Positions 1,737 through 56,143 of a DNA stretch of 64,000 nt are shown here, piece after piece. Source of the stretch: a virus. The DNA lies in IMG/VR virus record IMGVR_UViG_3300032770_000018, positions 1 to 64,000 of that record. One strand, written 5' to 3'. The first letter of the stretch is position 1. Every line of letters starts with the position of its first letter. The position numbers and the translations under genes were made by a program. The notes beneath the pieces were generated by a model that ran no database searches, was not told where the DNA came from, and was given only the letters and a program-made list of their open reading frames with translations.

Positions 1737-2251
1737 GGCAGCAAAACCTTTCCGCAACAGGCACATTCGATGTGCGTCTCGGTCTCTTTGGTTTCGAGGT
1801 GGTGGCAAAGCTGCTGGCGGACGCGCTCTTCAACCTCAGACGGAAGGAAGAACAATCCCTGATGGCCAACCACAGGCACCGCCTCGGCCAGCTCCTGGCA
1901 GTCGTCAGTCATCCAGATCCACCGGCCAGCCGAATAGTCCCCCAGATCGCGTTCAGCCTGTGCCAGCGGTCGAGGGCGGCCGCACTTGACGTTAATTTGG
2001 TTGAATTCCTCGCTGGGCACGCAATCCTGGAGGATAACCACACAGAGGACCTTTCCGTAGGGCACGGTTTTGGCGGCTGCTATAAGGGCCGGGTCGTGCC
2101 CAAGCTCGGCGTCGCTCGGGCGATGCTTCGACGCGCAGATCGCCAGTTCGCCGCGATGGCTCGTTGGCCAAGACCGCGTTTCGTTCTTCTTCAGCTTCTT
2201 GGCCATAGCCGTCGCGTACGGCTGCCAAAGGCTGATTGCTCGGAGGCTCAT
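1733..2251 (-). CDS. ASCH domain protein
   Basis: 172 residues. The N-terminus (RAISLWQPYATAMAKKLKKNETRSW) matches the ASCH fold, a PUA-like RNA/nucleotide-binding domain common in phages. Near the C-terminus a short C-A-C-C segment may bind metal. The exact role is unknown; ASCH proteins are proposed to act on RNA or modified nucleotides. ATG 2251 overlaps the stop of a seven-codon upstream mini-ORF (2248-2268), so expression may depend on re-initiation. Confidence 0.75.
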   Translation of the reverse strand: MSLRAISLWQPYATAMAKKLKKNETRSWPTSHRGELAICASKHRPSDAELGHDPALIAAAKTVPYGKVLCVVILQDCVPSEEFNQINVKCGRPRPLAQAERDLGDYSAGRWIWMTDDCQELAEAVPVVGHQGLFFLPSEVEERVRQQLCHHLETKETETHIECACCGKVLLP

Positions 2252-2268
2252 AACATTTCAATGTTCAC
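2248..2268 (-). promoter_or_regulatory. GTG leader mini-ORF (MNIEML) overlapping the ASCH gene start
   Basis: On the minus strand CAGTGAACATTGAAATG gives GTG-AAC-ATT-GAA-ATG-TTA-TGA, whose stop overlaps ATG 2251 as ATGA. It belongs to the recurring GTGAAx-x-GAA leader family described in the findings. The -10/-35 match upstream is poor here. Confidence 0.4.
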
Positions 2269-2285
2269 TGCGTTAAGGGGATCGT

Positions 2286-2546
2286 TTAGTTCCTGGGTGC
2301 GTTTAGCGCCGTGCCGCGCAGCCGCGCCCATTCCCGGGCCTCCGTTAACAACCTGCTAATTTGTGCCGCACCTTCTACCTCAGCCGCCTCGGTGTCTGGG
2401 CACTCTGAAATCGCGGCAACGGTTTCCAGCGCAACAAGAGCACCAGCCATAAACGCCTGATGGCACTCACGGTTCTGGTCGGCGGGAATGTCTTTCGGGT
2501 AGATGGCATCCCGGTAGGTCTTCCACTGGTCTTGCAGGGTTTTCAT
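2286..2546 (-). CDS. Hypothetical protein
   Basis: 86 residues, predicted helical, starting MKTLQDQWKTYRDAIYP. The pattern resembles short phage proteins with a Trp/Tyr-rich N-terminus and a helical body, but I do not recognise a family. ATGA overlap with the upstream gene supports it. Confidence 0.55.
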   Translation of the reverse strand: MKTLQDQWKTYRDAIYPKDIPADQNRECHQAFMAGALVALETVAAISECPDTEAAEVEGAAQISRLLTEAREWARLRGTALNAPRN

Positions 2547-2779
2547 TTCACAAAGACCGCGATTATCGTGTCAACCATCCCAGGACCAGCACCGTTGCCG
2601 GCGGGAACAAAGACGGTCGAGTACTGCCAGCTTTCCAGCCGATAGCCACGCTCCGAGTTGTGCTCAATGCCAGCCTCGAACAACTGAGAGACCAGGGGAC
2701 GCTCACTTGCGTCGGCTGTGTCTCTCGGCCAGTTGCGGGGGAACTCGGCTACGATTCGGTGTTTCAGTTGTTTTCTCAT
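2543..2779 (-). CDS. Hypothetical protein
   Basis: 78 residues; mixed alpha/beta composition (RYRLESWQYSTVFVPAGN, then a hydrophobic VDTIIAVFVK end). It overlaps both neighbours by four bases (ATGA), which is the main support. No recognised domain. Confidence 0.55.
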   Translation of the reverse strand: MRKQLKHRIVAEFPRNWPRDTADASERPLVSQLFEAGIEHNSERGYRLESWQYSTVFVPAGNGAGPGMVDTIIAVFVK

Positions 2780-3591
2780 GGTTGCCAGTCGTCCTTGTGC
2801 TGATGTCCAGCAACGATTTTGCCGCTCAGCAGCATTTCCCGGCGCTCGAGCGCGCTGGTAAGCACGTCGCCGTAGAAGCTACCGACCGAATCAAGCCAGC
2901 CGACAACCTCGTAACTGTCTTCCTCAAAGCGCTTCCAAATCTCGGTACCGAGGGCCATGTCGTAAGCGGTGGTCAGCGCCGATAGCTGGATGGTATTTCC
3001 TAGGTCCCAAAACCGCTGGCACCAGGTCACGTCATAGACGGCCAGCGCGCCGTTTGGGAACACACAGGACGGACCTTTGACCAGCGCGGGCAGCCATCCG
3101 TAGGTTGCGACCGGGACATTGCGCTTGATGTTCCTGGCCACTAGGCGAGCCCAGCGCCGGGCGGACTCTCCGCCAGCCGCGCAGGGATTGAAGCACGCGA
3201 GCGTTCCGGCGGCGATCAACGGGCGCCCCATGCTGAAAAACTCGTCGAAGATCACTTCGTCGTAGTGCTTTTGGCCGACCCGGCAGTCGCTTTCGAGGAA
3301 GAGCATGTGGGTGTAGCCCTTGGACGCGGCGATCCGCAGGCCGGTGAAGAAAGTCGCGTTGGGGATCGCAAACTTATTGGGCTTGCCGTCGGCGAACTTG
3401 GCGCCCTTGAGGATTTCCGGGCTCTTAATTTTGATCGCGCCCGGCCAATCGTGCTCCGAGTAGATCAGCAGGTCGTAGCGCGAAGGGAACTTTTGGAGGT
3501 TCTCCATGAAGACCCGGGCGCAACCGAAGGAGGGAGGCGGCGCGTACGCGAGCGTTGCTAGTTTGATGCTCATGGGTGGAGTGTGGCTCAT
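2776..3591 (-). CDS. Glycosyltransferase-like protein
   Basis: 271 residues (or 265 from a second Met). The fold cues are an N-terminal beta strand (IKLATLAYAPP), a central MLFLESDCRVG acid motif placed like the DxD nucleotide-sugar/metal site of GT-A enzymes, and Cys/Trp-rich later segments. It resembles the other glycosyltransferase-like genes of this window (45977, 47527, 48281, 56140), which suggests modification of virion or host-surface glycans. Substrate unknown. Confidence 0.6.
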   Translation of the reverse strand: MSHTPPMSIKLATLAYAPPPSFGCARVFMENLQKFPSRYDLLIYSEHDWPGAIKIKSPEILKGAKFADGKPNKFAIPNATFFTGLRIAASKGYTHMLFLESDCRVGQKHYDEVIFDEFFSMGRPLIAAGTLACFNPCAAGGESARRWARLVARNIKRNVPVATYGWLPALVKGPSCVFPNGALAVYDVTWCQRFWDLGNTIQLSALTTAYDMALGTEIWKRFEEDSYEVVGWLDSVGSFYGDVLTSALERREMLLSGKIVAGHQHKDDWQP

Positions 3592-3770
3592 TTCGGGAGT
3601 GCCCTACTGCCTAAAAAGACAAGGCTCGTAACCAAAATCCCACTAATCACGTAAAAGATCGTGTCGTTTTTGGTGGATGTTGGAGGCCACATGTCCCAAG
3701 TCAACGAAGCACCCACCAGGACGCCAAGAACGAAGCCTGCTGAGAATTTGACCTTTGGTTTGGTGCTCAT
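3588..3770 (-). CDS. Small two-helix membrane protein
   Basis: 60 residues with two hydrophobic segments (FSAGFVLGVLVGASLTW and FYVISGILVTSLVFLG). Coupled by ATGA overlaps to the genes on both sides. Could be a membrane-anchored phage accessory protein; no family recognised. Confidence 0.55.
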   Translation of the reverse strand: MSTKPKVKFSAGFVLGVLVGASLTWDMWPPTSTKNDTIFYVISGILVTSLVFLGSRALPK

Positions 3771-3973
3771 GACGGCCTTTTGCTGCGCTCCTCCGATAGA
3801 ATCTGCTCAAACCGCGCGAGCCACTCGTCCATAAACATTCGCTGGCGCTGGAGGCTCTCCTCAAGCTCGCCAACACTTCGGCGCATTGACTCGGCGGCAT
3901 CCCTCATCGCGCAGCCAGCACCTTGGACGTTCTCGGCATCCAGGACGAATGGCTGTTGGTTGGTGAAGCTCAT
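3767..3973 (-). CDS. Hypothetical helical protein
   Basis: 68 residues; after about residue 20 it is strongly helical and charged (SMRRSVGELEESLQRQRMFM), a likely short coiled coil. Overlaps the next gene by ATGA. Function unknown. Confidence 0.5.
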   Translation of the reverse strand: MSFTNQQPFVLDAENVQGAGCAMRDAAESMRRSVGELEESLQRQRMFMDEWLARFEQILSEERSKRPS

Positions 3974-4000
3974 CGGATTGGAAGCGGAGAGGGAAGGTAA

Positions 4001-4249
4001 TCAGTTCTGATCTGGTCGGATAATCCATGTCTCGGATTCCTTCCACTCCCTGTCGGAGATTGGCTCGCGCCGAAACAGCCGACACCAAAGCCGCACCATG
4101 TCCTGCTCTCGGCCCTCTTTGACAATCGCGGTGGAATAGTTTCTTCCGGTGATTGCATCAGCAAGGGTAGCAATGGCCGAATCGGCAAAGAGGCTTCGCC
4201 CTCTCGGAGCCAGTTTGCCAGCCTCAACAACTACGTCCTTCATGGTCAT
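4001..4249 (-). CDS. Hypothetical protein
   Basis: 82 residues beginning MTMKDVVVEAGKLAPRGRS. Composition is protein-like and the gene lies in line with the small-gene operon, 27 bases upstream of the next start. The start ATG overlaps a short ATG-AGT-TTA-TGA upstream frame. No family recognised. Confidence 0.45.
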   Translation of the reverse strand: MTMKDVVVEAGKLAPRGRSLFADSAIATLADAITGRNYSTAIVKEGREQDMVRLWCRLFRREPISDREWKESETWIIRPDQN

Positions 4250-4261
4250 AAACTCATTCTT

Positions 4262-4525
4262 TCAGATGGCAAGCTTGAGGGGAGGAGCCGAGCGGAAAGC
4301 ACCCCCAGGATGATTCCTGAGAGTGTTCCGCTCTGCCAGACGGTACGCCGTCGGGTTATCGCGTCGCGTTTTCAAACGGTCTCGCCCAATGGTCTGCCAT
4401 TCCGAGGCTAGGCTATTCTCGCAGCCTACCGTTACACCGCGCGGTTTTGGTCCATCGTGGACTACTGGCCGCGCCACATTAAGCGGAGTCGGTCCTGTTG
4501 GTCGCACTCCGCGCCATTCCTTCAC
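4262..4525 (-). CDS. Doubtful small ORF
   Basis: 87 codons from a GTG start. It sits just downstream of a terminator-like hairpin (4580-4614) and 12 bases before the next gene. The composition is Arg/Pro-rich and not convincing. It may be a real hypothetical gene or part of a non-coding stretch. Confidence 0.2.
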   Translation of the reverse strand: MKEWRGVRPTGPTPLNVARPVVHDGPKPRGVTVGCENSLASEWQTIGRDRLKTRRDNPTAYRLAERNTLRNHPGGAFRSAPPLKLAI

Positions 4526-4579
4526 CAGCGGGCCGCCTAACGCGATTCCCGGTGGCTACGCGGTTCAGACTGAGAGGAG

Positions 4580-4691: not shown

Positions 4692-4697
4692 GGTCTC

Positions 4698-5038: not shown

Positions 5039-5041
5039 AGG

Positions 5042-5149
5042 TCAAAGAATCGAGCCGTTAGCGTTTGAGGTGGGAAACAAGTGGGAGTCCGCTGGAAACG
5101 GCTCGGAAATTGGAAAATTGGGTATCGCGTTCACTGATTCACTTTTCAC
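5042..5149 (-). CDS. Leader ORF starting with GTG at a promoter
   Basis: 35 codons (MKSESVNAIPNFPISEPF...) opening with GTG inside the block ACAGTGAAAAGTGAATC. That block lies six bases after a TTGACG-17-TAGAGG promoter, so the mRNA would be essentially leaderless. It stops three bases before the next ATG. It may be a small protein or a translated leader that delivers ribosomes to the membrane gene. Confidence 0.4.
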   Translation of the reverse strand: MKSESVNAIPNFPISEPFPADSHLFPTSNANGSIL

Positions 5150-5187
5150 TGTAAGCAACCTCTACTCTTTTGACACGGGTGCGTCAA
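5147..5187 (-). promoter_or_regulatory. Promoter with CAGTGAAAA start block
   Basis: TTGACG (5182-5187), 17-bp spacer, TAGAGG (5159-5164), then 6 bases to ACAGTG. It lies within the 3' end of the upstream gene and would start a separate transcript for 5149 and 5038. Confidence 0.55.
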
Positions 5188-5413: not shown

Positions 5414-5443
5414 AATCAATGCAAGGCTTAATCGCCTGCGTGC

Positions 5444-7184: not shown

Positions 7185-7475
7185 TTAACAGGTGAGATAG
7201 CCGGTGCTGAGGTGATGCTCAATGGTGGATCCATCACCGGGGAGCACCTGCGCACCCCGGTTTTCCCAAAGTACGATTGACCGTTCATCCAGATGGTCAA
7301 TCCTGAGAAATCGTCCATCCGCGAGCCGAATTGCTGGGGCCAGCTTTCCCGATCCATCGATCTTAATGGGGTGGGAGTCATAGGTTGGGACTTGTGTTTT
7401 CATCGTCGATCCTGTCGAAAAATCCCCGCGTGAATCCGGGGAGAGTTGGTCGATGTTTCGATATTCAATTTTCAC
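7185..7475 (-). CDS. Hypothetical protein with leaderless GTG start
   Basis: 96 residues if started at GTG 7475 (MKIEYRNIDQLSPDSRG), or 72 from ATG 7403 in the same frame (MKTQVPTYDSH). The GTG is part of the CACTGTGAAAATTGAA block located five bases after a TTGCAT-16-TAGGCT promoter, so the transcript would begin at the start codon. The C-terminal half is beta-rich. Function unknown. Confidence 0.5.
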   Translation of the reverse strand: MKIEYRNIDQLSPDSRGDFSTGSTMKTQVPTYDSHPIKIDGSGKLAPAIRLADGRFLRIDHLDERSIVLWENRGAQVLPGDGSTIEHHLSTGYLTC

Positions 7476-7512
7476 AGTGAGGCAAGCCTAACTCCTTATG
7501 CACATAATGCAA
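7473..7512 (-). promoter_or_regulatory. Promoter with CACTGTGAAAA start block
   Basis: TTGCAT (7507-7512), 16-bp spacer, TAGGCT (7485-7490), five bases, then CACTGTG. It is the likely start of the leftward small-gene operon and lies in the divergent gap with the plus-strand gene at 7592. Confidence 0.55.
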
Positions 7513-7957: not shown

Positions 7958-7979
7958 GCCGAGCCCAAAAGCCCCCAAA

Positions 7980-8013
7980 GGCCGGAAATTGCGCAAAATC
8001 GCAGTTTCCGGCC
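7980..8013. terminator. Bidirectional terminator hairpin
   Basis: GGCCGGAAA pairs perfectly with TTTCCGGCC, and TGCG/CGCA extend the stem around a CAAAAT loop. ATTTTCG follows on the plus strand and a CTTTTGGG-type tract on the minus strand. It closes the 7592 gene. Confidence 0.7.
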
Positions 8014-8123
8014 ATTTTCGTGAATTTACCCCCTCCAGAATGGCCCAGGACGCGTTTTGATCGCGCCGTCCGCTGTGTTGATGTGGGGGTAAAATGCCGT
8101 TTGGCTTCCGTAATCGTACGGAA

Positions 8124-8151
8124 TTGACGGCCAGCGGAATCGGTGTAGAAC
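8124..8151 (+). promoter_or_regulatory. Promoter of candidate small RNA
   Basis: TTGACG (8124-8129), 16-bp spacer, TAGAAC (8146-8151). The predicted start is around 8158, at an ATG (8159), with the same geometry as the leaderless promoters elsewhere. Confidence 0.5.
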
Positions 8152-8158
8152 CGACAAC

Positions 8159-8292
8159 ATGAAGTTGCGTTGCGAGCGCTGGCGTGGAATGGTGGCAGTG
8201 ACTTTCGGCCATCCCACGCCGAATACATCCGCAGGTCGAGTCATTCTCCGCCTGCAATCCCGGCCATGCTCGCAACATGGCCGGAGCTTTTT
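8159..8292 (+). ncRNA. Candidate structured RNA (or leaderless short ORF)
   Basis: A predicted transcript of about 134 nt starts at the TTGACG-16-TAGAAC promoter and ends in a strong terminator at 8260-8290. Inside, GGCGTGG (8181-8187) pairs with CCACGCC (8214-8220) and GCAGG (8231-8235) with CCTGC (8251-8255). An ORF beginning at 8159 runs through the terminator to 8449, but its product is Arg/Ser-rich and unconvincing. I therefore favour a small RNA; a short leaderless peptide is not excluded. Confidence 0.4.
8260..8290 (+). terminator. Rho-independent terminator
   Basis: CCGGCCATG and CATGGCCGG form a perfect 9-bp stem with a 7-nt loop, followed by AGCTTTTTC. One of the clearest terminators in the window. 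Confidence 0.75.
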
Positions 8293-8611
8293 CTTCCGTG
8301 TAATCTCCCAAACAAATGCCGTCCTCCGAAGCTGGTCACCCCGAAGGCTTGAGTGCCTGGGCGTGGACACCCGGATCGGCAGGCCAAGCCCGGCGGTGAG
8401 CCGACAAGCAGGCCATTGCACCCCGGGAGAACGGTCAACGGAAATGTAGATCGCTCGAGCTCCGTGGCTGGCTTAACCGGCTGGTCATGACCAAAGGACT
8501 CTCGAGCACGCGGCGCGGACGCCCTCCGGAAACCGCCGCGGCGACCTGATAGGGGTGCGTCATGCCCAAATCCATTCGTGCCCAGATCCGAAAGCCATCA
8601 AGCCGGGAGCA
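8293..8611. other. Stretch without a recognised gene
   Basis: Only very short or low-quality frames (17-27 codons) on the plus strand. I see no promoter, tRNA or repeat that I can support. Confidence 0.5.
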
Positions 8612-8950
8612 TTAACCACTCGCGCGCAAAAACGTCCAGTTCCAAGACAGCCAAACCGATGAATGATTGAATGATGCCCGGACCAAAGTTGCTCGTCTCG
8701 TTCTCAAAACTGCGAAAATCGGCGTTTCCGTTCGCAGAAGTGAGAACCGGCCAGCACAAAATACCCTATTTTGTCCGACTTTCCAAGATTCGCTCGACAG
8801 GTCAGCGGTTTGCGCTTCCTCGACCAGCGATTTCGAGCCCAGGCCGGCCGCCTGGTGGAGGATTCCACCCTCCCGGTGGTTGGGGCGGGACCGCCCGGCC
8901 ATGCCCGGCCAGCCGTCGCAGGTCACCCTGCTGGACTCAAAGCGATTCAT
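8612..8950 (-). CDS. Doubtful ORF over hairpin elements
   Basis: 112 codons (MNRFESSRVTCDGWPGMAGR...). An AAAGGTG sequence lies just before the ATG and the start is 11 bases after the previous stop, which favours translation. However, the frame crosses two strong dyads (8701-8746 and 8756-8774), which suggests a structured or non-coding element. Low confidence. Confidence 0.3.
   Translation of the reverse strand: MNRFESSRVTCDGWPGMAGRSRPNHREGGILHQAAGLGSKSLVEEAQTADLSSESWKVGQNRVFCAGRFSLLRTETPIFAVLRTRRATLVRASFNHSSVWLSWNWTFLRASG
8701..8746. repeat. Long imperfect hairpin
   Basis: TTCTCA pairs with TGAGAA and CTGCGAA with TTCGCAG across symmetric 3-nt internal loops; a CGG/CCG pair continues in the loop. 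The inner sequence resembles that of the 7980-8013 hairpin (both have GCGAAAATC/GCAAAATC then GTTTCCG), so the two may be copies of one intergenic element. Confidence 0.5.
8756..8774. promoter_or_regulatory. Palindrome, possible operator
   Basis: ACAAAATA-CCC-TATTTTGT is a perfect 8-bp inverted repeat with a 3-bp centre, the size expected for a dimeric repressor site. AT-rich in a GC-rich setting. No promoter was recognised next to it. Confidence 0.35.
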
Positions 8951-8961
8951 GGGTTCACCTT

Positions 8962-9270
8962 TCAGATTTTTTGAGGCTCTGGAGGGCGGGTTTTGCTGGC
9001 TGCTGGACGGGTTGGAGATTTTTTGAATGGGTTATTGGGCTGATTTGCGGCGTACAGGTTGGCGTCTGCCGGGCATGGGGTAGTGAATCCGTCGCGCAGG
9101 ACGTGGCCAACGACCGAGACCTTTCCTCGGGTGCGGAGGTTGCAGAGGTGGGCGCTGGCGCGGCGGCGGCTGGCGTAGAGTGATAGCTTTGGCCAGAGGA
9201 TGGCGCCAATCTCAGGGGCGGTGGCTGGTGAGTCGGCGAGGAGCCTGAGGATTCGGCAGGTGATGGTCAC
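8962..9270 (-). CDS. Putative winged-helix DNA-binding protein
   Basis: 102 residues from GTG 9270, which overlaps the upstream stop as GTGA. The helical segment TCRILRLLADSPATAPEIGAIL followed by a basic helix and beta wing (ASAHLCNLRTRGKVSVVGHV) fits a small winged helix. The tail is basic and Pro-rich. Could be an early regulator. Confidence 0.5.
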   Translation of the reverse strand: MTITCRILRLLADSPATAPEIGAILWPKLSLYASRRRASAHLCNLRTRGKVSVVGHVLRDGFTTPCPADANLYAANQPNNPFKKSPTRPAASKTRPPEPQKI

Positions 9271-9434
9271 CGCTGTTGGGCTTGTAACTCGTGGAACAAT
9301 TCGGTGTGGAGGCGCCGGCGTGAGCGTTCCTGTCGGGCGTGGCAGTCCCGGCAGGTGCGCTGGCCTGGGCGGGCGGGCAGGCCGCAACGGCAGTTGGTGT
9401 GGCCGATGGGCGGTGGTGCCGGCTGGGGATTCAC
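9267..9434 (-). CDS. Small zinc-ribbon-like protein
   Basis: 55 residues from GTG 9434 (GTGA overlap with the previous stop). C-R-C-G followed by C-R-D-C-H-A-R form a two-knuckle zinc site; the C-terminal half is a basic helix. DNA or RNA binding is likely but unproven. Confidence 0.5.
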   Translation of the reverse strand: MNPQPAPPPIGHTNCRCGLPARPGQRTCRDCHARQERSRRRLHTELFHELQAQQR

Positions 9435-9929: not shown

Positions 9930-10184
9930 CTATCGGTCTCCCCAGACTGCGAGGTTCATCGCCGCGGCTGCCAGGGAGAGCACGCAGAGGATTTTGGCCG
10001 GCAGGGGCAGGAGGGCGACCAGCGGGCAGGCCAGGAGGTTGAGCAGGACGGTCCGGCGCCAGCCCAGGAGGAAGACCAGCGGGTTGAGTTCCCGGGCGAG
10101 GTTCGGGCTGGCCAGGCGCGTGGTCAGGAGGTCGGCCGCGCGGCAGGCCAACAGGCAGAGCAGGATGAGGAAGTAGCCGATCAC
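9930..10184 (-). CDS. Small multi-pass membrane protein
   Basis: 84 residues with three hydrophobic segments (GYFLILLCLLACRAADLL; NPLVFLLGWRRTVLLNLLAC; ILCVLSLAAAAMNLAVW). I start it at GTG 10184, which is inside CACAGTGATCGG just after a TAGGAC -10 box, implying a leaderless mRNA. The pattern recalls short DUF5658-like proteins, but this is weak. Confidence 0.5.
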   Translation of the reverse strand: MIGYFLILLCLLACRAADLLTTRLASPNLARELNPLVFLLGWRRTVLLNLLACPLVALLPLPAKILCVLSLAAAAMNLAVWGDR

Positions 10185-10221
10185 TGTGTGGAGTCCTAGG
10201 CGGCGATCATGGCTTGGATAA
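10182..10221 (-). promoter_or_regulatory. Promoter with CACAGTG start block
   Basis: TTATCC (10216-10221), 17-bp spacer, TAGGAC (10193-10198), four bases, CACAGTG. The -35 is weak, but the layout equals the other members of the class. Confidence 0.4.
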
Positions 10222-15580: not shown

Positions 15581-16078
15581 TCACTCGCATTTCTCCGGCA
15601 ACGCCTTGAACCCGCCCTCCTTGAGCGCCTGATAGAAGGTGCGTTCCCCGTCCCACGCGTAGGGCAGGAACACTTCGCGGTACTCGGCCTGCTTCATTTG
15701 GATCATGGACATCTGGACCTCGATCCAGTCTTGAACAATCTTCCAAGCCGTGCGCTCGGCCTGCTGCGCAAAGTCGGACTTACGCTTTTTCTTATGGGGG
15801 CTCCACGCCAAGGATTTCCCGTCCGATGATAGCTGTTCGCCATTGGCGTAGTTCAGCCAGAGTGCGTCCAGTGCCTTCTCTTTGTCGGCGGGAATGCGAA
15901 TCGTCATGCGCGGCGCGCCTTGGTCTGGCTGAATGTGGAAGGTGATGGCCGAAATCTCGCCGTTGGTACCGCGGTACTCCTTGGTGATCCCGCTCACCCC
16001 GCACCGAATTAGCACCTGCTCAATGCGGTAGATGGTCTGGCTTACCGGCACGTTGCTGGTGTAGTTCTTGAGGAACAT
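15581..16078 (-). CDS. Conserved phage protein of unknown function
   Basis: 165 residues: FLKNYTSNVPVSQTIYRIEQVL at the start, a beta-rich middle (SAITFHIQPDQGAPRMTIRI), a basic region KKKRKSDFAQQAERTAWKIVQDW and the C-terminal FLPYAWDGERTFYQAL motif. This arrangement recurs in phage early regions next to recombination genes. The start ATG lies inside a GTG leader ORF (16042-16092). Confidence 0.65.
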   Translation of the reverse strand: MFLKNYTSNVPVSQTIYRIEQVLIRCGVSGITKEYRGTNGEISAITFHIQPDQGAPRMTIRIPADKEKALDALWLNYANGEQLSSDGKSLAWSPHKKKRKSDFAQQAERTAWKIVQDWIEVQMSMIQMKQAEYREVFLPYAWDGERTFYQALKEGGFKALPEKCE

Positions 16079-16092
16079 ATCTCGATTTTCAC
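16042..16092 (-). promoter_or_regulatory. GTG leader mini-ORF over the gene start at 16078
   Basis: Minus strand CTGTGAAAATCGAGATATG: GTG 16092 opens a 16-codon frame (MKIEIC...) that overlaps ATG 16078. Same motif as the other leaders, but no good -10/-35 pair precedes it, so it may act only in translation. Confidence 0.35.
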
Positions 16093-16108
16093 AGTTTGTT
16101 TGCGCGGC

Positions 16109-16660
16109 CTACCTCGCGGGCTCCGGCGCGCGTTTGCGCACCCGGATTTCGCAAATCATCCCGGCCTTGAAGGCAGCGGGGTAGAACACGTCGGCCAGCG
16201 CCATCACCGATGGCACCTCCTCCGGGTCGTCTGGGTCGGCGTCAATATAGACCTTGATCTTGTCGCACTGGCGCTCGAAGGACAGTGGCATCTCGCGGTC
16301 GAACACCAGGGAGGTCGCCCGGCGAATCTGTTCGAGCAGGCCGTCCACGTCAAACTGCGGGTCCTGCTGGAACTCCCGCGCCGGCTCGGGCGAACCGACC
16401 AGCCCCTCCTCGAGCAGGATTTGCGCGTCGTAGCCTCCAAGCTGGCCGGCGCGCGCCGCCAGGTACTTGATGGCCTTGATCTGCCGCCCGGATTTTCCGC
16501 AGACAATTTTGAAGTCCGCGCGGTGGGGAATGACAGTGATTGCCACGTCGCTGCCATCCACGGCTTCCAGGATACGGCAGTCCGCCGGGTAGCGGCACAG
16601 GCCAAGAATCAGTGGGGCGATGGCCTTGCTAAGCGGGTGTTTCAGGTCTTCACGTTTCAC
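16109..16660 (-). CDS. KH-domain protein (KhpA-like), leaderless GTG start
   Basis: 183 residues. A KH-type RNA-binding core is seen around ITVIPHRADFKIVCGKSGRQIKAIKYLAARA: the GKSGRQIKAIK part equals the GxxG loop and helix of KH domains (KhpA/YlqC style). The remaining sequence is acidic with beta strands and resembles no named family. There is no ATG near the N-terminus; GTG 16660 lies in CACAGTGAAACGTGAA, five bases after a TTGACA-17-TATTGC promoter. A phage KH protein could bind phage sRNA or mRNA. Confidence 0.6.
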   Translation of the reverse strand: MKREDLKHPLSKAIAPLILGLCRYPADCRILEAVDGSDVAITVIPHRADFKIVCGKSGRQIKAIKYLAARAGQLGGYDAQILLEEGLVGSPEPAREFQQDPQFDVDGLLEQIRRATSLVFDREMPLSFERQCDKIKVYIDADPDDPEEVPSVMALADVFYPAAFKAGMICEIRVRKRAPEPAR

Positions 16661-16698
16661 TGTGATAAAGCAATAACCCGGGCGCGCCGGGCTGTCAA
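16658..16698 (-). promoter_or_regulatory. Strong promoter with CACAGTGAAA start block
   Basis: TTGACA (16693-16698), 17-bp spacer, TATTGC (16670-16675), five bases, CACAGTG. The best -35 of the class. Transcript would begin within a few bases of the GTG start of the KH gene. Confidence 0.65.
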
Positions 16699-23696: not shown

Positions 23697-23736
23697 AAGA
23701 GGAATTTAATGGGATAGAATCAGTTTCAAATTTCAC
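23689..23736 (-). promoter_or_regulatory. GTG leader mini-ORF overlapping the Sak4-like gene start
   Basis: 15 codons from GTG 23736, stop TGA ending at 23689; it overlaps ATG 23696 by eight bases. Translation of it would place ribosomes on the ATPase start. Confidence 0.45.
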
Positions 23737-23780
23737 AGTTCACTGTAAAGCGTTTTAACCCATGACGCGCGAAGGCGCAA
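23736..23780 (-). promoter_or_regulatory. Promoter with a doubled GTG leader block
   Basis: TTGCGC (23775-23780), 17-bp spacer, TAAAAC (23752-23757), five bases, then ACAGTGAA and, seven bases later, CTGTGAAATTTGAAAC. Two GTG starts result: one reads MNCEI-stop, the other (23689-23736) reads MKFETDSIPLNSSYG and its stop overlaps ATG 23696. Confidence 0.6.
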
Positions 23781-32396: not shown

Positions 32397-33992
32397 TCAG
32401 GAAATGCTCGTGGCAAAGGCCGGCCGGTCTCGCCTGCCAACGGTCTCGGGGTCCAATGTCTGCAATTCCTCAGCGCACTCCATCAGCAGCGCGTAGGTCA
32501 GGGCGTCGAAGACGTGCTTGTTCTCGTCGTCCACCACGTAGTTAAGGGCGCCCTTTCCCTTTTTGAGGTCGCGCAGCATCTGGATGGTCATTGTGCAGTG
32601 GGCGCTTACGCGAATTCGTCCCTGCATCAGCAGCTTTTTCAGCAACCTCACACGCTGGGCAACGCTGTGTTTGGCCTTTGGGACCCCGATAAGCTGAATT
32701 CGGTTCCTGGATGCCGCATAGACCTCCAGATGCTGGTAGGTGTCGCCGGTGCTCTGGTACTTCTCGATGGAAGATCGATCCGACCAGGCGCGTTCCAGGT
32801 CAAGCCTGTGACCGGCGATTTCCTCGATGGACAGCCTTCCCTCGGGCATGTCGGGATTGCCCTCGATGAGCCCCATGAACGCCACGGTAAATTCCTCAAC
32901 CGACATTTCCTTGCCGATGTTGACCAGCTCGTCGAGCACGGAGAAATAGGACCGCCCGCTGATGACGTTTCGCTCGATGGCGACGGCAGCGTGGTTTTTG
33001 TCTCCCAGGTCCCAACCGGTTATCAACTCGGCGATCGTCGGACTGGGGTTGAGGTATTCCCAGTCGTCTTCATTCTGCGATGAGCAGTTTCCAACAACGT
33101 GAAGATTTTCACGGAAGCAGCCACGGAAGTGTCGGCTCTGGTCACCGAAGCCAAAAACCCACTTGCCGTTCACCAGGCGCTCATACATCCCGATGTCCGA
33201 GCCGCAGGCGACGGTGACCTCGTCGATCTGTCTGGGATCCAGCCGCGGGTTCTCGCGGATACCCCATTCCAGGACGTCCGAGTTGGTCTTGAAGAAGTCG
33301 AAAACCCGCTCAGGCAGGACGGGCAACCCCACCTCGGTATTGTGCGCGGTATACTCATCGTAGGTCCACTTGCGCTCGAGGTAGAACGCCCGGTAAATCC
33401 AGGAGCTTTCGCCTTCCTCGGCCGGGTTGGTATCGGCAATCCACTGCTGTTGCTCGAACGGGATGTTGAGCATACGCAGCGCTGGGAGGCCGTACTGGAG
33501 CACGCCACGGGTGCCGAACTTCGAAAGCTCAGAAAAGTAGATGAGGCTGAACTCCATTTCCTTGAGCTTATCCTCAACGTCGTTATCAACGTCGAGGGAG
33601 AACAACATGCACTCCGATTCACCGCCGTAGCCGTTGCGCACCCGAAAGAATGGAGTGCGGGTCTGGCCGTCAACTTTTGGACCCGGACGCTTGTCGGCGC
33701 CCATGGTGGTGTAGCGGATGCCGATGCCGGATTTGAACCACTCCGGCAGGATGTCCCGCTGCATCTTCATCCATGGGCCGCCGTCCTTCGAGTTCTTGAG
33801 CGTGCGGCTGAACATCGCGACCCGGGCGCCCTTAACCTCCCAGAGATGGCGGACGATCTTATGCAGGACGGCGATGGTCTTGCCCGATAGGCGTGGGCCG
33901 CAGACCAGCATTGCCCGCTTCATGCAGTTGTAGACCTCCAACTGCCGATCGAACAGGTCGGGAAAGAAAATGCCTTCGGAGTCGATTGGCAT
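32397..33992 (-). CDS. terL: Terminase large subunit
   Basis: 531 residues from ATG 33992 (TAATG overlap with the GroES-like gene). Walker A-like CGPRLSGKT, Walker B-like FSLIYFSELSKFG region, coupling TNPAE motif, and a nuclease domain with ITGWDLGDKNHAAV. Packages DNA into the procapsid. Encoded on the opposite strand to the head genes, with a separate promoter shared with the chaperonin gene. Confidence 0.9.
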   Translation of the reverse strand: MPIDSEGIFFPDLFDRQLEVYNCMKRAMLVCGPRLSGKTIAVLHKIVRHLWEVKGARVAMFSRTLKNSKDGGPWMKMQRDILPEWFKSGIGIRYTTMGADKRPGPKVDGQTRTPFFRVRNGYGGESECMLFSLDVDNDVEDKLKEMEFSLIYFSELSKFGTRGVLQYGLPALRMLNIPFEQQQWIADTNPAEEGESSWIYRAFYLERKWTYDEYTAHNTEVGLPVLPERVFDFFKTNSDVLEWGIRENPRLDPRQIDEVTVACGSDIGMYERLVNGKWVFGFGDQSRHFRGCFRENLHVVGNCSSQNEDDWEYLNPSPTIAELITGWDLGDKNHAAVAIERNVISGRSYFSVLDELVNIGKEMSVEEFTVAFMGLIEGNPDMPEGRLSIEEIAGHRLDLERAWSDRSSIEKYQSTGDTYQHLEVYAASRNRIQLIGVPKAKHSVAQRVRLLKKLLMQGRIRVSAHCTMTIQMLRDLKKGKGALNYVVDDENKHVFDALTYALLMECAEELQTLDPETVGRRDRPAFATSIS

Positions 33993-40965: not shown

Positions 40966-41032
40966 TTGCTTGGTTGGCGATTCGGTGCAATGCTCTGGCA
41001 CAGTGAAAATCGAAATCCAATGCCGCACATAG
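40966..41032 (+). promoter_or_regulatory. Promoter with CACAGTGAAAA block and GTG leader ORF
   Basis: TTGCTT (40966-40971), 16-bp spacer, CAATGC (40988-40993), five bases, CACAGTG. GTG 41003 opens a nine-codon frame (MKIEIQCRT) that overlaps ATG 41020. Confidence 0.55.
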
Positions 41033-42376: not shown

Positions 42377-43956
42377 AAACCGTATCCCAGTTAAAGACGG
42401 AGATCCGAAACCAGGTTTGGCCATCTGGTCCGCCGGAGAACCTCACTAGCGCACATGATCTGCTCTTCCAGGAAGCCTTCGCCGAGATCGCCAAGTGGGT
42501 GGAATGCGAGCAGGTGGGCAACGTGGATGTTACGGACTTCTGCAAGACGTTTTTCAAATGCGGGGTGACGGTCCTCCCATGCCCGAAGGGTATCATCCGC
42601 CGGCTCTACGTCATCGCCAATGACGATTTCTGCGACCCGGTATTCTACGAGGAGGTGACGTACGAAAAGCTCGTGGCCTGGTCGAACTTCCTGGCCTACA
42701 TCATCAAGCAGGCCAATGTCCCGCTAACAGGCGGCCCGCTGCCGCTGGGATTCAGGGCGGCCGACGCTTCGACCGATAGCCTCTGCGGGCGCGCCCGGCA
42801 AGGCTACTGGGCCAAATACCGCGGCAACATCTACATTGCTCCGTGGATTCAGAGCATGGAGAGCGTGGTCGTCGAGTGGGATGGCATCAAGACCGTCTGG
42901 GGAGACTCCGACGTGGTGACTGACACCCAGGACTATAAAAAGGCCATCAAACTCTATTTCCAGTACGGTCACGAGCGCGACTATGGCGACCAGAGCATGG
43001 CGGCTGCTCTCAAAGTCGGAAACCCTCCCGGAACCGGAGGATTTGACCAGGCACTGGCGGACCTCGGGTGGCAGTGCCGTGAGAACACGCGCGTCCGTGA
43101 GAGCCAGCCGCAGCCAAACAAGCAGCGGTTCGGCTGGATCACGCTCGACCTGATCGAGAAAGGACTGCCGCCAGGGCCTGTGCCACCATCGGTCATCGCG
43201 CATCTGGGCAACTTCTTCCCGTCTGGTTCGGCCTCCGACGAGGTGGGCGCTTTGGTTCGGACGATGTCTCCGGCGGCGCTGGTCGCCTGCGGGTTGGTGG
43301 CTGGCGCCTCGGGAGACAGCTACGACGATCCGACCGGAAAATGGTTCCACGACTTTATTCAGCCATACCTTGGGGCCCAAGGCGCCGGCTCGGACGCTGG
43401 GAACGCCTTCTGGCCGGCAGTGGGCCCGGGCGACTGGGCAAAGGACGCCTGCGCGACCTTCTTGGCCTGGTTCCCGATAGGCAATCGCCTCTACTACTCG
43501 AAATGCCTGCAAAACATCGAATTCTTCTTCCTGGACACCAACGTGCGTGAGCCTGACGGAAACTGGTTAAACTCCACGCAAGCGCAATGGCTCCAGGTGT
43601 GGATCGCGATGAGCACCTCGCCCTGGAAAGTGGTGGTAATGGCCGACTGCCCGTATGGCTCGGTCCGCAGCAACGGATTGCTCCAGTGGCCGTTCAGGTC
43701 GTGGGGGATTGATATGGTGCTTTGCTCGGGCGCCGTGAACTACGAGCGGCTTTCGGTGTCGGGGATGCCGGTGATTAACAATGGACTGGCTGGAGGAAGT
43801 GCTATTGAGCCGGTGGTAACTCCGGACCCCAACTCGGTGTTCGTTTACAGCGCCGGAGGTGGTGTTGGCCGAATGACCCTCGATGCCAATAACCTGCTCT
43901 ACGAGTTTGTTCAGCTCGACGGCTCAACCATTGACTCGGTGAAGCTCACCAAATGA
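42373..43956 (+). CDS. Virion protein: adaptor-like domain plus degenerate metallophosphatase
   Basis: 527 residues from GTG 42373. The N-terminal ~230 residues are a helical/beta region that looks like a head-tail adaptor (TEIRNQVWPSGPPENLTSAHDLLFQEAFAE). The C-terminal ~260 residues follow the plan of calcineurin-like metallophosphatases (purple acid phosphatase type): AVGPGDW stands where GNHD-type and VLCSGAVNYERL where SGHxHxYER is expected. The metal ligands are largely lost, so it is probably a structural or sugar-binding pseudo-enzyme. Confidence 0.5.
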   Translation: MKTVSQLKTEIRNQVWPSGPPENLTSAHDLLFQEAFAEIAKWVECEQVGNVDVTDFCKTFFKCGVTVLPCPKGIIRRLYVIANDDFCDPVFYEEVTYEKLVAWSNFLAYIIKQANVPLTGGPLPLGFRAADASTDSLCGRARQGYWAKYRGNIYIAPWIQSMESVVVEWDGIKTVWGDSDVVTDTQDYKKAIKLYFQYGHERDYGDQSMAAALKVGNPPGTGGFDQALADLGWQCRENTRVRESQPQPNKQRFGWITLDLIEKGLPPGPVPPSVIAHLGNFFPSGSASDEVGALVRTMSPAALVACGLVAGASGDSYDDPTGKWFHDFIQPYLGAQGAGSDAGNAFWPAVGPGDWAKDACATFLAWFPIGNRLYYSKCLQNIEFFFLDTNVREPDGNWLNSTQAQWLQVWIAMSTSPWKVVVMADCPYGSVRSNGLLQWPFRSWGIDMVLCSGAVNYERLSVSGMPVINNGLAGGSAIEPVVTPDPNSVFVYSAGGGVGRMTLDANNLLYEFVQLDGSTIDSVKLTK

Positions 43957-45980
43957 TAAACTTCCCCGTCATCAACGAAGACCGGTGTCAGCAACCGGCC
44001 GCGACATGCGTGGACCCGCGGTGCTCTGACCCGACGTTTGCGGCAGCCAACCCATTGCTCTGCTCCACGACCGGAAACCTCGTGGTTAAGCCTGAGGTAG
44101 CTGAACTCTGCGCTCCGACCGAACTTCAATTCGGCCTCTACGCCAGGACGCCAACCGGGGATGTAGAGATTGCCGACGGCATCACCTGGAGCAGCTCGAA
44201 CTCGGCCGTAATGACCATTGGAGCGGTGGACGGCAAGGGCAGCGCGCTCACCGCCGGGCTAGTGACCATCACCGCGACCTGGCAGGGGGTCAGCGCCTTC
44301 GCGCAGGTCAATGTTCTGGGCGTGGACGGCAGTTGCTGCGACGGCGTCCAGGTCGAGTTCGCAACGGTGGTGGACAATTCGCTTTCGATGAGCCAACCCT
44401 TCGGCGGCTCGTACCCCACCAAGCTCTCGGTGGCCAAGGCCCTCCTCCAGGGGATGATCTCGCAACTGCAGGCCAAGGACATCATGGCAGTCGGCGAGTT
44501 CAACGACGGCTACAAGACTGACCAGGGCTTTACCTCAAACCAATCTCTCCTGGACGCGGCCGTTAACGCCATCCCCACAAGCAGTGGACAGACCAACGTG
44601 CCGCTCGCCATTCAGAACGCCCAGGCGCTCCTGGCTGCTGCGCCTGCACCAACCGGCCAGACCACAAGTTCGCTAAAAATCATCCTGCTCGTGAGCGATG
44701 GCGATAGCCGGCCGCTGCTGAGCACCTCTGACATGGCGGCGCTTCTCAATTCAGCCAAGGCATTCAAGGCCTCTGGCGGGGTGATCATGTGCTGCGGCAT
44801 TCGCGCCAAAGGCGATGGCTTCAACCTCCTGGACCAGATTTCGAGCGGCGGTTTCTTTATCAATGTCTTCGGCTCCGACTCGGAGGTGTCGGACGCGATC
44901 ACGCGCCTGACATGCAGCATGGGCTACGTCTGCGCTGGGTCTCGGCCGCCGGACGGCTACAGCTGCGCTGGCTACGGCTACAACTGCTGTGACGCGCCGA
45001 TTGGCCCTCAAGAGCCGGACCCGACGAACCCCTGGGACCTTGAGGACGGCAGTCCTCCACAACCTCCACCGCAGCTTCCACCAGTCCAGTTCTCACCCGC
45101 AGATGGAACATTCCAAACCAACGCAGCGCACGTCTCACTCTCCGTACCGGGGCACCCGAACGCGGCAATCATGTTTTCGATCAATGGAACAAGCACGCCC
45201 CCAGACCCGTCCTTTTCTCCTCCGGTTGGGCAGGCCTACGAAGGGCAAAACGCGCCGGTAACCCTCTGGCTTAACGGTTCGGATTCGGTCTGCATCAAGG
45301 CGATGGCGAGAGAATCTGGATACGCCGACAGTGCGGTCTCACAGGCGTGCTACCCACCAACCAGGACAATAGCAGCCCAACTCAGCGGGCTGCGCTGGGA
45401 GATGCCGCTTATTTCCGATCTCACACCATGGCTCTACACCACGGAGTCGGTAGTCCCAGACAAAAACACCGTGCTGGTCGGAGACCCGAACCGGGTGTAC
45501 AACGTGACGCTCAGGTTTCGAGGCTTTGTTGAGCCGTTTCCAGACTATACCGGAACCCCAGACCCCAGCGCCACGGGCTCGCAGCTTCTGATCGCCCTGG
45601 GGGACGTTAACCCAACCACGAGGTCAGGAGGCGGTGCGTTTGTCACGGGCGGGACCGCGCCAACCAACACGGCTGGGAATGTATACGAGTTGATTATTTC
45701 AGACCCTCCGCAGCATTTCTTCCTCAACGGGGCTGTCGCTGGACTGCTTCAAGACGTCGGGATGCTAATTGATTACACCGAGACTATCCAGATGCGAACA
45801 GGGGCAACCGTAACGATGAAGGCCAGTTCAGGCGACGGCCAGGCAATCGGAAATGGCAGCTTTGGGGACCCCGGCGGGTCGGGATACCACGTCTGCTATC
45901 TCGCCGCCGTTGGGGTGCCCCCTTACCCTGCGGCTTTCATAACCCAGTACATCCAGATGGACGTGGTCTCAGTGACGTGA
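43953..45980 (+). CDS. VWA-domain virion protein with Ig-like and chitobiase-like modules
   Basis: 675 residues. The N-terminus has a Cys-rich segment and an Ig/BIG2-like domain (VEIADGITWSSSNSAVMTI). Residues ~135-300 are a von Willebrand A domain with an intact MIDAS: D-x-S-x-S at Asp141, Thr in TNVPLAI and Asp in SDGDSRP. Then comes a Cys-rich loop, a Pro-rich linker, a chitobiase/Ig-like module (FSPADGTFQTNAAHVSLSVPG) and a beta-rich C-terminus. Metal-dependent adhesion to a host surface is a fair guess. Confidence 0.7.
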   Translation: MINFPVINEDRCQQPAATCVDPRCSDPTFAAANPLLCSTTGNLVVKPEVAELCAPTELQFGLYARTPTGDVEIADGITWSSSNSAVMTIGAVDGKGSALTAGLVTITATWQGVSAFAQVNVLGVDGSCCDGVQVEFATVVDNSLSMSQPFGGSYPTKLSVAKALLQGMISQLQAKDIMAVGEFNDGYKTDQGFTSNQSLLDAAVNAIPTSSGQTNVPLAIQNAQALLAAAPAPTGQTTSSLKIILLVSDGDSRPLLSTSDMAALLNSAKAFKASGGVIMCCGIRAKGDGFNLLDQISSGGFFINVFGSDSEVSDAITRLTCSMGYVCAGSRPPDGYSCAGYGYNCCDAPIGPQEPDPTNPWDLEDGSPPQPPPQLPPVQFSPADGTFQTNAAHVSLSVPGHPNAAIMFSINGTSTPPDPSFSPPVGQAYEGQNAPVTLWLNGSDSVCIKAMARESGYADSAVSQACYPPTRTIAAQLSGLRWEMPLISDLTPWLYTTESVVPDKNTVLVGDPNRVYNVTLRFRGFVEPFPDYTGTPDPSATGSQLLIALGDVNPTTRSGGGAFVTGGTAPTNTAGNVYELIISDPPQHFFLNGAVAGLLQDVGMLIDYTETIQMRTGATVTMKASSGDGQAIGNGSFGDPGGSGYHVCYLAAVGVPPYPAAFITQYIQMDVVSVT

Positions 45981-52628: not shown

Positions 52629-52631
52629 ACT

Positions 52632-53807: not shown

Positions 53808-54592
53808 AAGCCTTGCTATTCTACATCTTTCTGGTTTGTGCATCGGCCTCGGCGCAGATGGCGCTCTGGAACAAGACACAGTTGGCCATAGTCCCGCAAG
53901 GGTTGGTCGGATACTGGACGCTGGACGTCGCGGATTGCCCAAGCGGAAAGGCGCTGGATGCCAGCGGCGCGGCGACTAGCGCGTTCCAAGTCGCGGCTCC
54001 AACCCAGACAAATGGAGTTGTTGGGCAGGGGATGTTCTTTAATGGCTCAACCCAATACATTGACATCACAACTTCATCGAATGCCTGGTACAATTTTAAG
54101 ACCGGAACGGTGTGTTTGTGGTGCAAGGAGCGGGATACGGGAGGGGAAACGATCCCGTGGTCAGCGTCGTCAACCAGCGCATCCACCACAGAAATTTTCA
54201 TTGAGGAAGATTGGCGCTCTGGAAACAAATTCTGGAATATCGTTGGTCGTTACAATAGCAGCACAGAATGGCAGTACACGATTTACATTCCTGGGGGCTA
54301 CGCCTCTAACAACTGGGTTCACATCGCCCTCGTCCAAAATGGGGTCGCCCCGACGTTCTTTACGAACGGGGTTCTGTCAACGATGACGGGAACAACCACC
54401 ACGGCTCCGTCATACTGGCTAAGCAACATTTTGTATTCGGCTAACGCCACGCCCGCGAACAAGATTTCCATCGGGCTGTTGCATCGGAGTACGCTGGTGT
54501 CTCAGTATGCTGGGGCGGTGGATGATGTGCGGGTTTACAACTACCCGCTTTCGGCAGCGCAGATTGCGAACATTTACAAGGCGGGACATTGA
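53804..54592 (+). CDS. Secreted LamG/ConA-like lectin domain protein
   Basis: 262 residues from ATG 53804. Signal peptide MKALLFYIFLVCASASAQMA, then LVGYWTLDVADCPSGKALDASG... VGQGMFFNGSTQYIDI, WVHIALVQNGV, and YAGAVDDVRVYNYPLSAAQIANIY, the hallmarks of laminin-G/concanavalin-like lectin domains. Probably a carbohydrate-binding fibre tip. Confidence 0.8.
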   Translation: MKALLFYIFLVCASASAQMALWNKTQLAIVPQGLVGYWTLDVADCPSGKALDASGAATSAFQVAAPTQTNGVVGQGMFFNGSTQYIDITTSSNAWYNFKTGTVCLWCKERDTGGETIPWSASSTSASTTEIFIEEDWRSGNKFWNIVGRYNSSTEWQYTIYIPGGYASNNWVHIALVQNGVAPTFFTNGVLSTMTGTTTTAPSYWLSNILYSANATPANKISIGLLHRSTLVSQYAGAVDDVRVYNYPLSAAQIANIYKAGH

Positions 54593-55050
54593 AGGGCTCA
54601 GTTGAATCAGAATTCCGACCAGCGGTAGCTTCCGACCTACTGAAGATCGGGCGACTGGTCCGGGAGTTCTACCACAAGGTCGGAGGTGTTTACGGCATCG
54701 AGTACAGTCACGACGACGCAATGAACCTGATTTCTGGGCTGATTGCGCGCGGGATTTGCCTTGTTGGGCCTACGAGTTGCGCCGGTGCGCTGGTGATGCC
54801 CTTTCCGTACAACAACAAGGCGCAGGTGGCCTACGTTGCCTTCTGGTATTTTCAGGAGTCCCGCGAGATACGAATTTTCGAGGAGTTGCTGCGCCGGTGT
54901 GCGGCAGCCGGGGCCACACACGTCAGCGCGGCCAGCCACTTCCCGCACAACCGGATCGCCAGGTGGTATCTCAAGCTGGGGCTCCATCCGGTCGAGGGCC
55001 AGTTCTGCCGGGCGCTGAATAGTGCTTGCATCCAGCCGGGAGCGGCGTAA
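54589..55050 (+). CDS. GNAT-family acetyltransferase
   Basis: 153 codons from TTG 54589 (TTGA overlap with the previous stop). Acetyl-CoA site cues: RPAVASDLLKIGRLVREFYHK, AYVAFWYFQESREIRIFEELLRRCAAAGATHVSAASHFPHN, then ARWYLKLGLHPVEGQFCRAL. Could acetylate sugars or a protein; found in phage tail regions. Confidence 0.75.
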   Translation: MKGSVESEFRPAVASDLLKIGRLVREFYHKVGGVYGIEYSHDDAMNLISGLIARGICLVGPTSCAGALVMPFPYNNKAQVAYVAFWYFQESREIRIFEELLRRCAAAGATHVSAASHFPHNRIARWYLKLGLHPVEGQFCRALNSACIQPGAA

Positions 55051-55053
55051 AAG
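55026..55053 (+). promoter_or_regulatory. Leaderless-type promoter
   Basis: TTGCAT (55026-55031), 16-bp spacer, TAAAAG (55048-55053), six bases, ATG 55060. It lies inside the 3' end of the acetyltransferase gene. Confidence 0.5.
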
Positions 55054-55059
55054 GCAGAT

Positions 55060-55857
55060 ATGGGTTCGATGATCACAGCCTTTCAGGGAAACCCGACGTT
55101 TTCCACCCTGACGAACGTCAAGAACCCCGGGCTCAACAAGCAAATCAACAGCGCCGCCGCCGGGGCAGGCACGCTCAACTCGAATGCCCAGGCCTCCCTC
55201 GCCGACTACATCACGAAGTACATGGGCGGTCTGCCAGCAGCCCAACAGCGGACTAACCAGGAAGTGGCGTCGGTGGACAGCCTCTACAACGGCGGCATGG
55301 CCCAGCAACTGGCCGCCCTCAGGGCAGCCCAGATGTCGGCAACCAACGCCGCGGCCAACGTCGCAACCCAGCAGGCGCTGCGCGGGCTGAATGCCGGCCG
55401 CCTCGGAGAACAGGGCGCAGGCAGCTCCTACGACGCCCGTATGGCCATCGGTGCGCTTCAGCCAATCGCGGTGCAGGCGGCGCTCACCAATGCCGGGCAG
55501 GCCAGGACAGACCTCGGGACGCTGACGGGCCTTCAGCTTGGAAACCTTGGGGTGGCCCAGGGCTTGGCCAACCAGCAGGCGGCTTACGGTATGCAACCCG
55601 TCTCGGCCGCCGAGGCGGTCTATGGGCAGAACCTGAACAATTTGAACGGGCTGGCCGGCCTCTACAACGCCAACGACATCTACGGCGTGCAGCAGAACAA
55701 AACGACGCTCGATGAAATCGGCAATTTCTTCGGCGGCATGGGCAGTGCTGGATCGTCCTTCATGTCCACGATGGGCAACAACCCCGGGTTGGCCAGCAGT
55801 CTTGGAATGGGTGGCATGTTTGGCCCCGGCGGTAGCAGTGGAGGAATGAGCCTGTGA
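55060..55857 (+). CDS. Internal virion/ejection-type protein
   Basis: 265 residues, Ala/Gly/Asn/Gln-rich and helical (DYITKYMGGLPAAQQRTNQEVASVDSLYNGGMAQQLAALRAAQ), with a Gly-rich C-terminus (GSSFMSTMGNNPGLASSLGM). This style fits internal core or ejection proteins of podoviruses. No named family. Confidence 0.55.
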   Translation: MGSMITAFQGNPTFSTLTNVKNPGLNKQINSAAAGAGTLNSNAQASLADYITKYMGGLPAAQQRTNQEVASVDSLYNGGMAQQLAALRAAQMSATNAAANVATQQALRGLNAGRLGEQGAGSSYDARMAIGALQPIAVQAALTNAGQARTDLGTLTGLQLGNLGVAQGLANQQAAYGMQPVSAAEAVYGQNLNNLNGLAGLYNANDIYGVQQNKTTLDEIGNFFGGMGSAGSSFMSTMGNNPGLASSLGMGGMFGPGGSSGGMSL

Positions 55858-56099
55858 GCGCTAGGGTGTGTGGAAGCTGCGGGACACGAATGCCAGCGCG
55901 GCCAGTGATCGGACGATGGGCGCAGGTCCTGCACAAAGCTCGACGCCTCATCGTGGTAGGAACAGTGATCGACGCCTACCCAGGAACGCAGCGGGCCAAG
56001 AGAATCCGCATCCAGCGCGGGCCGCTTCAGGGAGAGGTTGTGCAGCCGCACGAGTACGAGTTCAAGGGCTTCATCGAGGACGAAGAAGTTGACCCCTGA
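55854..56099 (+). CDS. Small zinc-knuckle protein
   Basis: 81 residues from GTG 55854 (GTGA overlap). Opens with VCGSCGTRMP, a C-x-x-C knuckle; the rest is basic with beta strands (RRLIVVGTVIDAYPGTQR). Unknown role. Confidence 0.5.
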   Translation: MSARVCGSCGTRMPARPVIGRWAQVLHKARRLIVVGTVIDAYPGTQRAKRIRIQRGPLQGEVVQPHEYEFKGFIEDEEVDP

Positions 56100-56143
56100 C
56101 GCCTCCGGGCGTAGGTTTTGGCACAGTGAAAAGTGAACTATGA
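56089..56143 (+). promoter_or_regulatory. Promoter with CACAGTGAAAA block and GTG leader ORF
   Basis: TTGACC (56089-56094), 17-bp spacer, TAGGTT (56112-56117), four bases, CACAGTG. GTG 56126 reads MKSEL-stop (56126-56143); its TGA overlaps ATG 56140. Confidence 0.6.

Follow-up and report, generated by a model that had tools for sequence, protein, structure and literature searches.

The first 64,000 bases of the viral record IMGVR_UViG_3300032770_000018 in IMG/VR (hereafter the window; bases 1-64,000 of 78,136; 60% GC) contain a 15-bp block, ACWGTGAA-NNN-YGAA, that is present in nine copies at eight loci, six of which place it at a fixed distance from a predicted promoter. The block is a genuine repeat and not a product of chance, and our leading interpretation, held tentatively and with somewhat less than even confidence, is that it constitutes a phage-specific recognition site for a sequence-specific regulator, probably one encoded by the phage, and is operator-like, possibly on RNA. 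The source is a tailed phage, uncultivated and possibly temperate, that carries an integrase; genes in the record include those for a terminase, a portal-like protein, DnaB, an O-like initiator, exonuclease VIII, two DNA methyltransferases and a tyrosine integrase. Among phage isolates no near match was found, and the terminase and portal gave no tblastn match.

A genuine, oriented repeat

The motif carries approximately 21 bits; its ends are invariant, its middle is variable, and the flanks on both sides are nearly blank. Named by the position of their GTG, the copies are 2268(-), 5149(-), 7475(-), 16092(-), 16660(-), 23743(-) with a tandem copy at 23736(-), 41003(+) and 56126(+), and all nine are oriented syn to transcription and stand where a gene or transcription unit begins, none being antisense or in mid-gene. 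Across the whole record, exactly nine positions score above 14 with a 15-base matrix built from the nine copies, as compared with a mean of 0.05 in third-order Markov genomes; the next-best match (10.4) overlaps the 56126 site, and the top independent match scores 9.5. Because those same copies had served to train the matrix, scoring was repeated with each locus left out, and eight copies then ranked first and 23743 second among 156,244 positions. Similarly, when every 15-mer upstream of a called gene served as a seed, making no use of the ten positions listed in an earlier, sequence-only reading of this DNA, the block was the top sense-upstream repeat. As a simple pattern it has seven matches in the 78,136-bp record, while a reversed control pattern has none.

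These results bear on the notion that the block reflects no more than accidental similarity among A-rich starts of genes selected by eye. For 10184, among the ten positions listed, this does hold: the GAA-NNN-YGAA half is missing (the sequence reads ACAGTGATCGGCTAC), and the promoter there does not stand out (tail probability 0.14). Nevertheless, the excess over Markov genomes, the leave-one-out ranks and the seed-based recovery leave the chance explanation with a negligible probability, and the expectation that the block is commoner at starts than chance would allow was borne out. The remainder of the list held, with 23743 and 23736 being two true copies that form a single tandem site. No RNA structure or Rfam leader was found that would explain the block, nor does any curated Rfam family match within the window. 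All nine copies do encode, in the literal sense, the GTG-initial peptide noted in the sequence-only reading, V(K/N)xE, but a coding explanation leaves the conserved ACW upstream of the GTG unaccounted for.

Position relative to promoters and start codons

A good TTGnnn-16/17-TAnnnn promoter is found at 5149, 7475, 16660, 23743 and 56126, with genome-wide tail probabilities of 0.002-0.035, and a weaker one, with AATGCT as its best -10 element, at 41003. At these six of the eight loci the distance from the end of the -10 element to the A of the block is constant at 5-6 nt, which, as judged from the promoter sequences, should place that A at about +1 of the transcript; the leaderless ATGs of the phage sit at this same offset. 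No promoter occupies the expected place for 16092 (tail probability 1.0) or 2268 (0.58). The promoter layout described in the sequence-only reading was thereby recovered well at the first five loci and weakly at 41003, and did not stand out at 10184.

With respect to start codons, the main ATG lies 14 or 17 nt past the GTG at four sites (2268, 16092, 41003 and 56126), while the distance is 111 nt at 5149 and 47 nt at 23743. Neither placement always at +1 nor placement always just before an ATG fits all eight loci. The GTG had also been read as the start codon of the gene itself at several heads. The one gene start on a block GTG that found support is 16660, at which homologs of the encoded KH-domain protein in two related phages begin no more than a few residues away; the open reading frame (ORF) opened by the GTG at 7475 has a hexamer score of -0.08 per codon, which gives no support for coding potential. 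The unit at 41003 starts at ATG 41020 (MPHIVSFSGG), from which a PHROG PAPS reductase match extends beginning with residue 1. The block is absent from late structural promoters of the leaderless type, the early or late class of a transcription unit being taken from its gene content alone.

Table 1. Block copies, their promoters and associated features within the window
Feature	Coordinates	Strand	Context
Block GCAGTGAACATTGAA	2257..2271	-	17 nt before ATG 2251 (ASCH-domain gene, then tyrosine integrase); no promoter at expected place
Block ACAGTGAAAAGTGAA	5138..5152	-	At promoter; next called ATG 5038
Promoter TTGACG-17-TAGAGG	5159..5187	-	Of 5149 block
Block ACTGTGAAAATTGAA	7464..7478	-	At promoter; GTG opens 96-codon ORF of doubtful coding potential
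Promoter TTGCAT-16-TAGGCT	7485..7512	-	Of 7475 block
Non-member ACAGTGATCGG	10170..10187	-	At 10184; only ACAGTGA in common with block
165-aa conserved protein	15581..16078	-	Start Met kept in 15 viral relatives
Block ACTGTGAAAATCGAG	16081..16095	-	Operon-internal, between KH gene stop and ATG 16078 (14 nt before ATG); no promoter
KH-domain protein	16109..16660	-	Weak KhpA/B match; in replication region; homologs in two related phages
Block ACAGTGAAACGTGAA	16649..16663	-	GTG 16660 is start codon of KH-domain protein
Promoter TTGACA-17-TATTGC	16670..16698	-	9 nt before GTG 16660
Block ACTGTGAAATTTGAA	23725..23739	-	Second, overlapping tandem copy
Block ACAGTGAACTGTGAA	23732..23746	-	First of tandem pair; head of recombination/replication operon; ATG 23696
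Promoter TTGCGC-17-TAAAAC	23752..23780	-	Of 23743 block
Promoter TTGCTT-17-AATGCT (weak)	40966..40994	+	Of 41003 block
Block ACAGTGAAAATCGAA	41000..41014	+	17 nt before ATG 41020 (PAPS-reductase-like moron)
Promoter TTGACC-17-TAGGTT	56089..56117	+	Of 56126 block
Block ACAGTGAAAAGTGAA	56123..56137	+	14 nt before ATG 56140

Several neighboring features were also observed. The tyrosine integrase gene (852-1736, minus strand) lies directly behind the ASCH-domain gene bearing the 2268 block. Between called genes there is a gap of approximately 1.5 kb at 7958-9430, in which the ORFs examined score negative for coding and which adjoins 7592, a gene that alone in the left arm runs rightward. Elsewhere, the gene at 43953-45980 (plus strand) encodes a von Willebrand factor A domain, shows weak matches of the Ig-like kind, and adjoins a glycosyltransferase gene (45977).

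Predicted leaderless messages and the absence of a Shine-Dalgarno signal

No Shine-Dalgarno (SD) signal was detected in the phage above the level of shuffled upstream sequence. Instead, 14 of the 63 genes have a -10 element whose end lies 5-9 nt ahead of the start codon, the distances peaking at 6-7 nt, as compared with 2.0 genes in other position windows and 2.9 in shuffles; the gene set derives in part from a home-made gene caller, with starts checked by homology for some genes. Examples of such leaderless-type promoters are found at 33992(-), 41876(+), 55060(+), 57917(+) and 59061(+), and others are seen in the related records G007 and G003. Specifically, 11 of 38 genes in G007 have a -10 element adjacent to the start, vs. 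1.1 elsewhere, and among homology-anchored starts in relatives the count is 9 of 67, vs. approximately 3.5 in other position windows. Orthologs of the terminase, 41876 and 55060 genes retain a leaderless-type promoter in some relatives. The control phages lambda (2/38) and DMS3 (2/41) show no excess in the same test. Leaderless messages are apparently a feature of the phage group, although calls of leaderless starts and promoters rest on sequence, and the block itself on a sample of one phage. One such promoter, TTGATA-16-TAAAAC-6-ATG, precedes a single ORF of 4616 codons (59061-72911) that runs past the end of the window.

The sequence-only reading combined these elements into a model whereby ribosomes enter at a near-leaderless GTG, translate a V(K/N)xE mini-ORF and re-initiate at the overlapping main ATG. 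Consistent with this model are the genome-wide leaderless signature, the use of GTG as a real start at 16660, the location of five GTGs 8-9 nt after a good -10 element, and, at five sites, mini-ORF stops lying at +1, +1, +5, +10 and -6 relative to the ATG. However, an equally close stop would arise from 14- or 17-nt leaders at some 60% of unrelated heads, while three of the four block sites have one, such that stop spacing is no better than the genome background. The 16092 copy contradicts the model directly: its mini-ORF overruns by 34 nt an ATG whose use as a start is conserved in 15 relatives, and it has no promoter, hence no leaderless entry. In addition, the first mini-ORF at 23743 ends 32 nt before its ATG, the 5149 ORF has a negative coding score, and the predicted transcript start is the A of the block, which would give a 3-nt leader and not a true leaderless end. 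We therefore consider the model as a whole unlikely; leaderless initiation survives from it as a phage-wide signature, near-leaderless use of GTG survives at the KH gene, and the re-initiation step does not. Doubtful to a like degree is the proposal that the fixed 5'-terminal sequence 5'-ACAGUGAA-NNN-YGAA is an SD-free ribosome entry module of early mRNAs, in which a near-leaderless GUG would either make protein or feed an adjacent ATG.

Distribution of the block among relatives and sequence collections

Relatives of the phage were found among viral records by way of conserved proteins, mostly 40-72% identical to those of the phage. The block occurs beyond chance in none of the 28 related records scanned whole, including those with an ortholog of the gene behind the 16092 copy; the search of related phages suggested by the sequence-only reading thus returned no excess, and a motif common to related phages is ruled out. 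Larger collections were scanned with exact-match patterns, which diverged copies can escape. A strict promoter-plus-block pattern, present three times in the window, gave 24 scattered matches in 84,980 genomes, which is the level of chance, and a looser form gave nine matches in IMG/VR. The matches of the strict promoter-plus-block and block-plus-ATG patterns in IMG/VR are almost exclusively chance coding matches; of the 24 returned by the latter pattern, nearly all are of the VK(I/V/T)E type. In L038 (GC 0.65) a single copy immediately precedes an ATG, and there is no second copy. As far as these scans reach, the block appears to belong to this phage alone, and such specificity argues against a signal for the host ribosome or a host promoter signal.

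The same data address the suggestion that the phage has borrowed the block from its host, where it would be a normal promoter or leader motif. Sigma70-like promoters with normal spacing at six sites would fit this suggestion, as would a host lying outside the sampled genomes. Nonetheless, the chance-level result in 84,980 genomes rules out a host-wide motif at the sensitivity of the strict pattern, and, together with the lack of the block in phage relatives, renders a borrowed host motif improbable.

Different repeats are found at gene starts in the related phage G019 (L111-L114; e.g., 37581(+), 31143(-) and 6843(-)). These repeats, AACCAACCAAT and AATGAGCACnATC, are A/C-rich and G-poor.

A proposed regulator site or a possible translation-start element

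Under the favored explanation, the block would sit syn-oriented on the first transcribed bases (+1 to approximately +15) of early and accessory units, with two copies lying just before a start codon instead. Most likely, a repressor or other regulator would bind the asymmetric, two-part site (ACWGTGAA ... YGAA) on DNA and block or tune initiation, while at the operon-internal 16092 copy the bound regulator might act on elongation, as proposed by analogy with the operators and stoperators of Cluster A phages. In an alternative version, binding would be to the same sequence in the 5' end of the RNA, making the block a translational operator. The block would fall on or just before start codons because the phage lacks an SD signal and often has leaderless or near-leaderless mRNAs, and at the KH gene the GTG of the block may have become the start codon. 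Protein binding, repression and the choice between DNA and RNA are what we infer from the repeat and its placement. Several observations point to a regulator site: the copies are all syn, six loci share a constant promoter offset, the block appears specific to this phage, late leaderless-type promoters lack it, a leader serving the ribosome merely by being A-rich should not call for as many as approximately 21 bits, and the tandem copies stand at the main recombination/replication promoter. Furthermore, the integrase behind the 2268 site makes lysogeny-type control plausible.

Several findings weigh against this explanation. Firstly, the GTG-to-ATG spacings of 14, 17, 17 and 14 nt are seen both at sites that have a promoter and at sites that lack one, and an operator acting purely on DNA leaves this recurrence unexplained. 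Secondly, the two TGAA units of the block are spaced 7 bp apart and not by one helical turn. Thirdly, no helix-turn-helix (HTH) or other repressor family was recognized in the proteins scanned, among which many ORFans remain. Lastly, the KH protein, the sole RNA-binding candidate, has homologs in relatives that lack the block, which weakens its candidacy as the cognate RNA regulator.

The recurrent spacing is more readily accommodated if the block is a translation-start element, that is, an A-rich, open 5' leader (often the entire 5' untranslated region, at 17-20 nt) that replaces the SD sequence and delivers the ribosome to a nearby ATG or, at the KH gene, to the GTG itself. Two of the four sites sharing the spacing are promoterless, the operon-internal 16092 copy immediately precedes a conserved ATG, SD signals are lacking in the phage, and the block leaders have a larger unpaired fraction than random sequence (0.56 vs. 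0.46, P = 0.009). Their openness, however, does not exceed that of other heads (P = 0.42) and by itself would require less than 21 bits. Moreover, the ATG is distant at 5149 and 23743, and a signal read by the host ribosome would be expected in relatives and in the genomes scanned, yet is absent there. A translation-start element is accordingly a possibility to be taken seriously, but one to which we assign a rather low probability.

Comparison with described systems

Cluster A mycobacteriophages such as L5 and TipsytheTRex carry short, 13-bp asymmetric operator/stoperator sites (PMC9283540, PMC6550527). The block resembles these sites in its asymmetry, syn orientation, conserved ends and variable middle, and in its location at early promoters and in short intergenic gaps: all nine copies are syn, six loci are at promoters, and 16092 is intergenic within an operon. 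Cluster A sites likewise vary in sequence between related phages and reside in temperate phages with an integrase. Unlike the nine copies found here, L5-type genomes hold more than 20 sites (26 in TipsytheTRex) together with a known repressor, and the block differs further in its fixed +1 position at promoters and its presence in an SD-free, leaderless genome. No match to a cognate repressor of the L5 type, with HTH and Stoperator domains, was obtained in the proteins scanned, many ORFans remaining, and because no repressor was recognized we do not claim membership in the Cluster A class.

The SAS/ESAS elements of Cluster K mycobacteriophages are asymmetric repeats of approximately 13 bp beside the starts of non-structural genes, for which a role in translation has been proposed (PMC3203893). 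They share with the block a single orientation, proximity to start codons, and rarity or absence in host genomes, as checked for SAS. In contrast to the block, SAS includes AGGAG, the SD core, 3-7 bp ahead of the start and is common to the whole of Cluster K; the block has no SD core, lies 14-17 nt before an ATG or on the start itself, and is absent from the 28 related records. Leaderless mRNAs are known from Thermus phage phiYS40 (PMC3594737), and in Deinococcus-Thermus the placement of a -10 motif next to ORFs is well documented (PMC12340547). The present phage is similar in that its -10 elements lie a few bp before start codons with no ribosome-binding site, but the leaderless starts described in those reports have no repeated block downstream, whereas six sites here put the 15-bp block, and not a start codon, at +1. 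Taken together, these precedents make the statement in the sequence-only reading that the layout is not a described phage system too strong.

Implications

The block provides a further clear example of an oriented repeat, specific to one phage, at the starts of transcripts, and the phage family concerned is apparently SD-free and rich in leaderless messages. If the block is an operator, it opens to view the circuit that controls a phage both uncultivated and possibly temperate; if its role is translational, it would represent a sequence-specific, SD-free start signal, and the entry module, if real, would be a phage-encoded alternative to Shine-Dalgarno initiation.

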